Assembly: GCA_024710805.1 (NCBI GenBank)
Contig: JANJUB010000169.1
Location: 1-64,000, forward strand
Reading direction: 5' to 3'
Length of the DNA: 64,000 nucleotides
From: Fimbriimonadaceae bacterium
Lineage (GTDB): Bacteria > Armatimonadota > Fimbriimonadia > Fimbriimonadales > Fimbriimonadaceae
The position numbers and the translations under genes were made by a program. The notes below the pieces were generated by a model. That model ran no database searches. It saw nothing but the letters and a program-made list of their open reading frames with translations, and was not told the origin of the DNA. Of this stretch, positions 6,206 through 52,572 are shown in pieces. The number at the start of each line of letters is the position of its first letter. Positions within the stretch are counted from its first letter, which is position 1.

Positions 6206-6260
6206 CGCTTCCACAGTCGTCGCTGGCTTGAGCGATTGCACGGAGCAGCTTCAGTCTCTT

Positions 6261-6341
6261 GTAGCCGCCGGATGCCATTGTGCCGGCGTAGTTGAAGGCG
6301 TAGTTCGCTTCTGCGCGGGCACGAGTGCATCCCGCGGCTAC
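6261..6341. repeat. inverted pair of REP-like hairpin elements
   Basis: The gap between the convergent kinase and galE genes holds two copies of a short palindromic element facing each other. Copy 1 (+, 6261-6288): GTAGC, stem CGCCGG, 11-base loop ATGCCATTGTG, stem CCGGCG. Copy 2 (-, 6341-6314): GTAGC, stem CGCGGG, loop ATGCACTCGTG, stem CCCGCG. The stems differ but remain fully paired, which argues for selection on structure. The two copies also pair with each other, with flanking arms at 6250-6275 and 6327-6350. A bidirectional terminator function is possible; there is no U-tract. Confidence 0.7.
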
Positions 6342-6375
6342 GAAGCTGAATCAGTTTGCTTTACGGTCAAGTGCC

Positions 6376-30567: not shown

Positions 30568-30588
30568 GAAGTTGCAGCGCCACGTGGG

Positions 30589-30610
30589 GCAGGGATGTCT
30601 CGTGCCCTGC
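30589..30610 (+). repeat. single REP-like hairpin element
   Basis: GCAGGG (30589-30594), loop ATGTCTCGTG, CCCTGC (30605-30610). Loop and layout match the elements at 6261, 51444, 52369 and others, while the stem has different but compensating bases. Lies between the DoxX gene and the beta-oxidation gene. Confidence 0.6.
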
Positions 30611-30638
30611 TCAGAGTCCAGCCGGTATCCTCTAGCCG

Positions 30639-50627: not shown

Positions 50628-51382
50628 GGTCGATCCGCGTCATCCCGTGCCTAGACATTCGAGATGGCCGGGTGGTGAAAGGCGTCAACTTCGTCGAATT
50701 GCGAGACGCTGGCGACCCGGTGCAACTCGCTTCGTTCTATGGTCGTGAGGGCGCCGATGAGCTGGTGTTTCTCGACATTACGGCGAGCCACGAGGGCCGG
50801 GCGCCCGTCATTGCGCTGGCCGAGCGGGTAGCCGAGCAGGTCTTCATTCCGTTTACGGTCGGGGGCGGCATCCGGACGGTCGACGCGATTCGCGATGCCC
50901 TGTTGGCGGGCGCCGACAAGGTGAGCCTGAACACGGCGGCGATCCAACACCCCGAACTCATCTCTGAAGCCGCGGAGCGATTTGGTTCGCAGTGCGTAGT
51001 GGTTGCGATCGACGCAAAGATGACTTGCGAGGGGTGGCACGTGTTCACCCACGGCGGACGACGCGACACGATGATGGATGCGGTGGAGTGGGCGGCTGAG
51101 GCGGTGCGTTTGGGGGCAGGGGAGATTCTGCTGACGAGCATGGACGCCGACGGCACGCGGGATGGCTATGACCTCCTGCTGACTCGGGCGGTTGCAGATG
51201 TGGTGCCGGTTCCGGTGATCGCGAGCGGCGGGGCGGGGAAGTCGTCTCACCTGGTGGATGCGGTGGTCGAGGGCCACGCAGACGCGGTGCTTCTTGCTGG
51301 GATTTTGCATGACGGGGTCACCACGATCCGGTCGCTAAAGGATGCGATGGCGGATTCTGGCGTGCCGGTACGGTTGACCTAG
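50624..51382 (+). CDS. hisF: imidazole glycerol phosphate synthase cyclase subunit
   Basis: Encodes 252 residues of the (beta/alpha)8 HisF barrel. The start [20 protein letters not shown] holds the catalytic Asp (PCLDI). Phosphate-binding loops include [13 protein letters not shown] and [17 protein letters not shown], with the second catalytic Asp in [20 protein letters not shown]. With HisH it makes IGP and AICAR in histidine synthesis. Other his genes are absent, so the pathway is dispersed here. A REP-like hairpin begins two bases after the stop. Confidence 0.96.
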
Positions 51383-51383
51383 G

Positions 51384-51507
51384 GGCGAGGCACGAACTTC
51401 CTCGCGCCTGGTGGCTTCAGACTCTTAGGGGATGATCACGAGGGGCGTGGATGGTTCGTGCCACGCCATGCCCTGGTCTACGCCGGTACGAGCCAACCGG
51501 CGACTAC
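51384..51507. repeat. three REP-like hairpin elements after hisF
   Basis: Element 1 (-): stem arms 51385-51390 and 51400-51405, loop AAGTTCGTG in minus orientation. Element 2 (+): GGCGTGG (51444-51450), loop ATGGTTCGTG, CCACGCC (51461-51467). Element 3 (-): stem 51481-51486 / 51497-51502 (CGCCGG/CCGGCG), loop TTGGCTCGTA, preceded by GTAGT. All have perfect stems of different sequence and a shared loop. Elements 2 and 3 face each other. Confidence 0.7.
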
Positions 51508-51534
51508 CGTTCACTCAAACGGTATTGTCTAGCC

Positions 51535-51945
51535 ATGAATGGGATCGACGTCAGTGACGATGGACTTGTTCTCTCACCCTATCTCCACGACTCGGTCCTC
51601 GTTGAAGCTCGGTTGTGTCCAGAGGTCGAACTCACCTTCCGGCGAGAAAGCGCATGCTTCAAGGTTACCGCTCTGGAGGACTCGCTTCTCTGGTGTTCAG
51701 GCCTGTCCTTGGGTGGGATTGTGTCGCAGACCTTCGCCTTCAAAAGTCATGCTGAACTCGAACGGGTGGTCAGTCAGGCGCACAGTGACCTATCCGTCGA
51801 CTCCCTGATGCGAGGCATCGAAGTGATGCAACTCAAGCCCTGCGGTCTGTTCTTCTTGATGAACTACCTTGACGACGTTGTTCTCTTCGTCAAGGACCTC
51901 TCGAAGGTTCGTTGGAGCGAGGTTCCGGCGTCAGGTTCAGAGTGA
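51535..51945 (+). CDS. hypothetical protein in accessory patch
   Basis: Encodes 136 residues, no signal peptide or membrane helix. It opens GIDVSDDGLVLSPYLHDSVL and contains RESACFKVTALEDSLLWCSG and LKPCGLFFLMNYLDDVVLFV, a mixed alpha/beta pattern. Many small accessory or immunity-type proteins look like this, but no family is recognised. TATTGT lies six bases before the ATG with no ribosome site. It is bracketed by hairpin repeats on both sides and its codon use appears less GC-rich than neighbours, hinting at transfer. Confidence 0.6.
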   Translation: MNGIDVSDDGLVLSPYLHDSVLVEARLCPEVELTFRRESACFKVTALEDSLLWCSGLSLGGIVSQTFAFKSHAELERVVSQAHSDLSVDSLMRGIEVMQLKPCGLFFLMNYLDDVVLFVKDLSKVRWSEVPASGSE

Positions 51946-52023
51946 GAAAGATGATCACCTCGGGGACTGCGGGGCATCGGCGAGTGCGGTTCCCGCGATC
52001 GCGCCAAGTGTTATGATGAATGG

Positions 52024-52359
52024 GTGCGAGTCGAGGCGCAAATCGCAGTTGTGACGATTTCGGTTGCAGTCCTGTCAATGACCCATCCGTCTGCCCTACG
52101 GGCATCCTCTTCACTGTCGTGGTCGCCTTGGTCTGCGTTTCAAGGACGGCCTCGTGAGTTCTTCGAGAGGGTTTCCGACCTTCTTAGAGGCTGTCTGCTC
52201 GGGGGTGCGTTTGGAGGTGCCTACTGCGCTCTGTGCCTGAGACTACCGGTTCCGTGGTCTATCTTGGTCGGGTCTTTCTGCGGGGTGGTCTTCTTCATGC
52301 TGTTCCGTCAATTCCTCAAGGCTCTCTTCGGCCTCTTGGGCTCTAGGCTAAGTGAATGA
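52024..52359 (+). CDS. hypothetical membrane protein in accessory patch
   Basis: Encodes 111 residues from GTG 52024. A signal-like N-terminus (IAVVTISVAVLSM) is followed by a Ser/Trp-rich stretch, then two hydrophobic segments (GCLLGGAFGGAYCALCLRL and WSILVGSFCGVVFFMLF). TATGAT lies six bases before the start, fitting the leaderless pattern. No family recognised; reality as a gene is supported mainly by the promoter, membrane pattern and lack of alternatives. Confidence 0.5.
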   Translation: MRVEAQIAVVTISVAVLSMTHPSALRASSSLSWSPWSAFQGRPREFFERVSDLLRGCLLGGAFGGAYCALCLRLPVPWSILVGSFCGVVFFMLFRQFLKALFGLLGSRLSE

Positions 52360-52360
52360 G

Positions 52361-52459
52361 CACGAGGGGCGTGGATGGTTTGTGCCACGCTTCGCAGGCT
52401 TTGACCGCCCGTGTGCAATGTTCTTCGCGCGGCACGAGCCATCCACGCCCTTCGTGGCG
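52361..52459. repeat. inverted pair of REP-like elements
   Basis: Copy 1 (+, 52361-52390): CACGAGG, stem GCGTGG, loop ATGGTTTGTG, stem CCACGC. Copy 2 (-, 52459-52427): same core, loop ATGGCTCGTG. Across about 27 bases the copies are nearly exact reverse complements, so the region can form one long hairpin with a 44-base loop. Copy 1 also matches the element at 51437-51467 over about 30 bases. Confidence 0.75.
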
Positions 52460-52572
52460 CTGTAGATAGCCTCCACAATCCTGAGGTCGTCGGTGGGCTC
52501 GTCCCGACGCGGGAGGTCTCCGCTTTGTCGGGCCTCTGTGGCGGCGACGAAGCGCCGCCCTCCCAAGGACCT

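Follow-up and report, generated by a model that had tools for sequence, protein, structure and literature searches.

The best-described relatives of the hairpins analyzed here are GTAG-tagged REPs that accompany RAYT/TnpAREP transposases (REPtrons; PMC3733652, PMC8266576, PMC6006769). Several REP types, each with a RAYT of its own, are already on record, as are the location of copies between genes and a bias toward convergent gaps (PMC3733652). Descriptive rules for the REP unit, namely a loop of 2–5 nt or a bulged long stem, and a GTAG or GTGG head, are obeyed by 62 of 66 families, and four do not obey them (PMC6006769). The choice of REP and of cleavage site by RAYTs has been tested in few enzymes (PMC8266576). 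In the open-licence literature we found no paper on REPs in Armatimonadetes.

We analyzed a 64-kb stretch of DNA (the window), the genome from which it comes (G000) and that of a sister species of the same genus (G011). The hairpins dispersed in the window are, with high confidence from sequence comparison, REP elements, often paired as REPINs, that would be non-autonomous and would spread in trans through RAYT transposases (Y1 HuH endonucleases). The assignment is based on defined unit boundaries, many copies, covarying stems, placement between genes, RAYT genes linked to the hairpins, REP types inherited together with their RAYT, and turnover between species. Several RAYT lineages are co-resident in the genus; head and stem are specific to each lineage, and one loop plan is common to all.

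The G000 system resembles REPtrons in the position of the head 5′ of a short hairpin, the intergenic dispersal, the inverted dimers, the RAYTs flanked by their own REP type, the presence of several REP types with specific RAYTs per genome and the scarcity of copies in divergent gaps. It differs in a conserved loop of 10–11 nt that is common to several RAYT lineages, when compared with 2–5 nt in described short REPs, and in GAGG as a second major head, when described heads are GTAG or GTGG. The G000 copies thus lie outside the 2–5 nt loop-length rule, but because this rule is descriptive and has exceptions, we take the departure as a variant and not as an exclusion. RAYT relatives in Planctomycetota and Nitrospirota adjoin canonical GTAG-CCGCAGGC-TTYA-GCCTGCG REPs. 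These related RAYTs are 38–41% identical, and their REPs have the head at the same position and a stem that likewise begins with CCG, but they are perfect palindromes with a 4-nt loop, in contrast to the 10-nt loop in G000. The IS200/IS605 transposons share with the G000 system a Y1 HuH transposase, folded single-strand ends and a guide 5′ of the hairpin; in G000, however, the hairpin alone is dispersed, and the genes fit the IS200 model far less well than the RAYT model. CGTC-tagged REPs, defined by a terminal CGTC motif and a loop of 4–5 nt, have no linked transposase, whereas in G000 there are linked RAYTs and the heads read G[TA][AG]G.

A covariance model (R1) was built from 33 training rows of G000. 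It recovered eight copies in the window at 32–41 bits, scores that are not independent because these eight copies are among the training rows. A model-free count with the loop pattern GGATGGYTYGTGCC gave 9 matches in the window with up to 2 mismatches, when 2.7 were expected, and 8 exact matches in the 3.25-Mb genome vs. 0 for the reversed pattern.

An inverted pair with outward heads is formed by the REPs at 6256–6292 (+ strand; head GTAG, stem CCGCCGG, loop ATGCCATTGTG; 33.8 bits) and 6310–6346 (− strand; head GTAG, stem CCGCGGG, loop ATGCACTCGTG; 35.7 bits). The copy at 30579–30614 (+ strand; 38.6 bits) belongs to the GTGG-GGCAGGG subfamily and is kept in place in G011. The remaining copies are clustered. 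A REP of the GAGG-GGCGTGG subfamily with loop ATGGTTCGTG at 51435–51470 (+ strand; 41.3 bits) has as its inverted partner the REP at 51477–51512 (− strand; head GTAG, stem TCGCCGG, loop TTGGCTCGTA; 35.6 bits), and G011 keeps both in place. Two ORFs on the + strand follow, one of 136 aa (51535–51945; not called coding by our home-made gene finder) and one of 111 aa (52024–52359; a probable small membrane protein with a G011 orthologue of the same length). Immediately after the stop codon of the latter, the REP at 52359–52394 (+ strand; GAGG-GGCGTGG subfamily; 35.3 bits) is also kept in place in G011, and its inverted partner at 52423–52458 (− strand; same subfamily, head GAAG; 35.3 bits) has no counterpart at the G011 site. 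The last REP, at 52478–52513 (+ strand; 32.0 bits), is of the GAGG-TCGTCGG subfamily with loop TGGGCTCGTC. The next match in the window, at 51381–51415 (− strand; 14.1 bits, E 0.55), is a degenerate remnant in which the stem GGCGCGAGG/CCTCGCC is visible and the head is lost. The copies reported in the initial annotation are therefore real, eight copies being strong, except that the element placed at 51384 is only this remnant and that the copy at 52478–52513 had been missed.

Each copy is composed of a head tetranucleotide (GTGG, GAGG or GTAG) 5′ of a 7-bp stem, followed by a loop of 10–11 nt, roughly WTGNNTCGTR, i.e. [A/T]TGNNTCGT[G/A/C]. The alignment of copies is gapless apart from one optional loop base, and the two loop-closing stem pairs are always GG/CC in the aligned copies. 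In seven of seven subfamilies conservation extends to 2–5 nt 5′ of the head on one side and to the final base of the stem on the other, and therefore the dispersed unit is sharply bounded and about 30 nt long. The shared loop proposed initially is real, although it is broader than ATGG(T/C)TCGTG, and the design also includes the head 5′ of the stem. Among the 150 listed copies, the heads were GTGG in 58, GAGG in 44 and GTAG in 37.

As initially proposed, the stems vary yet stay paired by compensating changes. In the training rows, a set partly selected for pairing, 93.9% of the stem cells were paired, when compared with 60% in shuffles and 42–48% with slid partners; the covariation score was 0.796 vs. 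0.162 in shuffles, and both sides had changed in five of the seven stem pairs. Because of this partial selection, the test was repeated in G011 with the loop sequence only. In 1.29 Mb outside the training set there were 62 matches to the loop core vs. 2 to the reversed motif. At least 4 of the 5 outer pairs were formed in 56 of the 62 matches, with 21 distinct outer stems, and the heads were GTGG (19), GAGG (18), GTAG (8) and GAAG (3). Compensatory stem changes would also be in keeping with a family of structured RNAs (cis-regulatory elements or small RNAs), but the window has no Rfam match, both orientations relative to genes occur, covariation covers the stem alone and the hairpins are linked to transposases, so that we give this reading almost no credence. 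In the window's own subfamily, CACGAG 5′ of the stem and CTCGTG in the loop could pair as a pseudoknot, but by inspection the other subfamilies do not fit, and so it is not a general feature of the unit.

When the genome was searched with the covariance model, as the initial annotation had called for, at least 150 copies were found. According to the calls of a simple home-made gene finder, 130 of the 150 listed copies lie outside genes, and the non-coding share of the window is 17.5%. A measure free of gene calls gave a similar picture: open frames of at least 600 nt contain 35% of the copies vs. 84–89% of random sites. Within the same list, 72 copies are single and 78 are paired or clustered, and the 47 neighbor pairs less than 300 nt apart comprise 19 inverted pairs with heads outward, 8 inverted pairs with heads inward and 20 tandem pairs. 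The placement between genes that was claimed from the window thus largely extends to the genome, but the predominance of inverted pairs does not.

Of the copies with both neighboring genes known, 45 lie in convergent, 52 in unidirectional and 7 in divergent gaps. This strong bias to convergent and unidirectional gaps, and the location of some copies directly after a stop codon (as at 52359), would suit intrinsic transcription terminators or stabilizers of mRNA 3′-ends that merely share sequence. The aligned copies, however, have no T run after the stem, and terminators need neither a conserved loop and closing GG/CC pairs nor a one-sided head and lineage-specific flanking of RAYTs. We therefore consider terminators or stabilizers a very unlikely explanation for the hairpins, and favor REP elements; the REPs may have a secondary role in 3′ ends.

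The Y1 transposase family has 13 matches in the G000 genome. Eight genes (L014–L021) match the RAYT model NF047646 at 77–88 bits, two of them just under the cut-off of 80. Seven of these RAYTs (L015–L021) are flanked by common-loop hairpins whose head and stem are particular to each RAYT. The RAYT of the GTGG-GGCAGGG subfamily is at G000:C27:5750-6211 and that of the GAGG-TCGTCGG subfamily, with loop TGGGCTCGTC, at G000:C138:20880-21356; further RAYTs are at G000:C190 (GAGG-GCGCAGG) and G000:C34 (GTAG). Subfamily assignment follows the nearest RAYT reference and is only approximate in the GCGAGGG and CCGNNGG groups. In G011, RAYTs found by protein search alone carry model matches on their flanks. 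RAYT genes flanked by the same hairpin, which the initial annotation had proposed to look for, are therefore present in both species, and its reading of the hairpins as REP/BIME elements spread by RAYT-type transposases is supported by copy number, intergenic placement, flanked RAYTs and site turnover.

Four pairs of RAYT orthologues between G000 and G011 (98, 89, 85 and 70% identity) retain the same REP type, and RAYTs only 40–67% identical differ in REP type. In the RAYT tree, the types with GAGG or GGAG heads are largely together, and several deep forks are unresolved. The sole relative with a solved structure is E. coli TnpAREP (4er8, E 1.7e-14). When aligned to 4er8, the HuH motif (H66xH68) and the single catalytic Y124 are invariant in the alignment A1. 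W94, Q95 and R104 of the E. coli enzyme are reported guide-recognition residues (PMC6006769), and W103, Q104 and R113, at equivalent places as read from the alignment, are also invariant in A1. A further RAYT gene, L099 (G000:C14:2833-3294), is without the common-loop hairpin and is flanked by GTAGCCGCGGG...CCCGCGG elements whose interior is long.

The window's own subfamily has a GAGG head, a stem GGCGTGG or CGCGAGG and the loop ATGGYTYGTG. A RAYT flanked by this subfamily was found in the sister species (G011:C26:152465), and no orthologue of it was found in the 207 contigs of G000. The orthologous intergenic site (G000:C189) is occupied by paired REPs from the GGCAGGG subfamily, and the presence of a pair from another subfamily argues against loss of the cognate RAYT by a simple deletion between its two REPs. 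Hence, the window's subfamily is present in G000 without an evident RAYT of its own, unless the gene falls in an assembly gap or another RAYT serves it.

REP copies turn over between G000 and G011, with occupied, empty and replaced sites. In the 27 REP clusters that could be compared, the orthologous gap contains a REP for 18 and none for 9. Insertion sites thus differ between the sister species; the initial annotation had suggested such a comparison between strains. The pair at 6256/6310 is absent from the G011 gap, where a hicBA-like toxin-antitoxin pair is present (G011:C8:217790-218235). Conversely, the G011 copy at 244377 has no counterpart in G000. In one gap the REPs of the two species belong to different subfamilies, and one array is richer in copies in G000.

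From hisF to an NtrC-like gene, both species share the 111-aa ORF and the REPs at 51435, 51477 and 52359. G011 lacks the segment with the 136-aa ORF, one break adjoining the head of REP 51477, and has instead a gene for a protein of about 230 aa, along with a different REP pair. A search of 61 genomes of the family gave no homologue of the 136-aa ORF, and G000 has no second copy of it. The presence of this segment in G000 only, its break beside a REP head and the different gene between REPs in G011 might indicate a gene-carrying mobile unit with REPs as its ends, in which REP pairs move accessory genes. We judge this improbable: the bounding REPs come from different subfamilies, the three REPs and the 111-aa ORF are kept in place in G011, the 136-aa ORF has neither a second copy nor a homologue, and turnover of genes in an intergenic hot spot rich in REPs accounts for the data equally well. 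The initial view of two genes (51535–52359) inside a repeat-bounded patch is weakly supported, since they are not a shared unit and G011 has one of them and a different gene. The comparison supports the view that the hisF-ntrC region is a hot spot, rich in REPs, in which genes turn over.

In the family, five of 61 genomes have model matches at E 0.01: G000, G011, G014 (42 matches) and two with one or two. In the phylum, ten of 275 genomes have matches at E 0.001, and five of the ten are from one other genus, in which the examined copies show GTAG heads and similar loops. G014 belongs to another genus; its 42 REP matches include pairs with heads outward (L069, L073, L127), and no close RAYT was found in this genome (best E 3.4e-8). 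These REPs are possibly an orphan REP population, and since the window's subfamily is also without an evident RAYT, some REPs are without a visible partner. This counts against the REP/RAYT reading, as does G006, which has close RAYTs and no model matches. G039, a genus mate of G014, has neither REP matches nor a close RAYT. A REP of another family member, G054, reads GTAG-CCGCCGG-TTCCGTG-CCGGCG. Distant RAYT-like genes of other family members (L080–L086, L090) have flanking inverted hairpins with GGGAG or GGAG heads, e.g. GGGAGGGAACCGCTCCGTCGGTTCC, which look like further REP or TIR types. A plausible history, which we only infer, is that the loop lengthened within the family and the head changed within the genus.

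In two group 3 enzymes, individual positions of the loop are critical (PMC8266576), and by analogy a contact with the loop is plausible in the G000 system. A RAYT would bind the folded single strand via the conserved loop and the closing GG/CC pairs, the head tetranucleotide may guide the choice of cleavage site, and the RAYT would then move the unit into intergenic DNA, giving rise to pairs and arrays. It is conceivable, although we hold it only tentatively, that a loop-read REP system evolved in the genus, in which the conserved 10-nt loop and GG/CC pairs are the common RAYT contact and the head (GTAG, GTGG, GAGG or GGAG) diversified with the RAYT lineage, re-setting the cleavage or insertion site.

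The unusual traits of the G000 REP/RAYT system are the long shared loop, the GAGG heads and the many co-resident RAYT-REP pairs. The loop, which according to the initial annotation may define an undescribed family, marks an unusual REP group, but it spans several RAYT-specific subfamilies and not one family. Published REP rules (loop of 2–5 nt, GTAG or GTGG head) would miss most of this system, and surveys limited to short loops and these heads can miss a whole REP class, in this case one from a lineage related to Armatimonadota. Because at least seven RAYT-REP pairs in one genus share the loop and differ in head and stem, their specificity could be read by part swapping. If the system is indeed loop-read, the co-resident pairs would be a natural series for reading the RAYT guide-to-target code.
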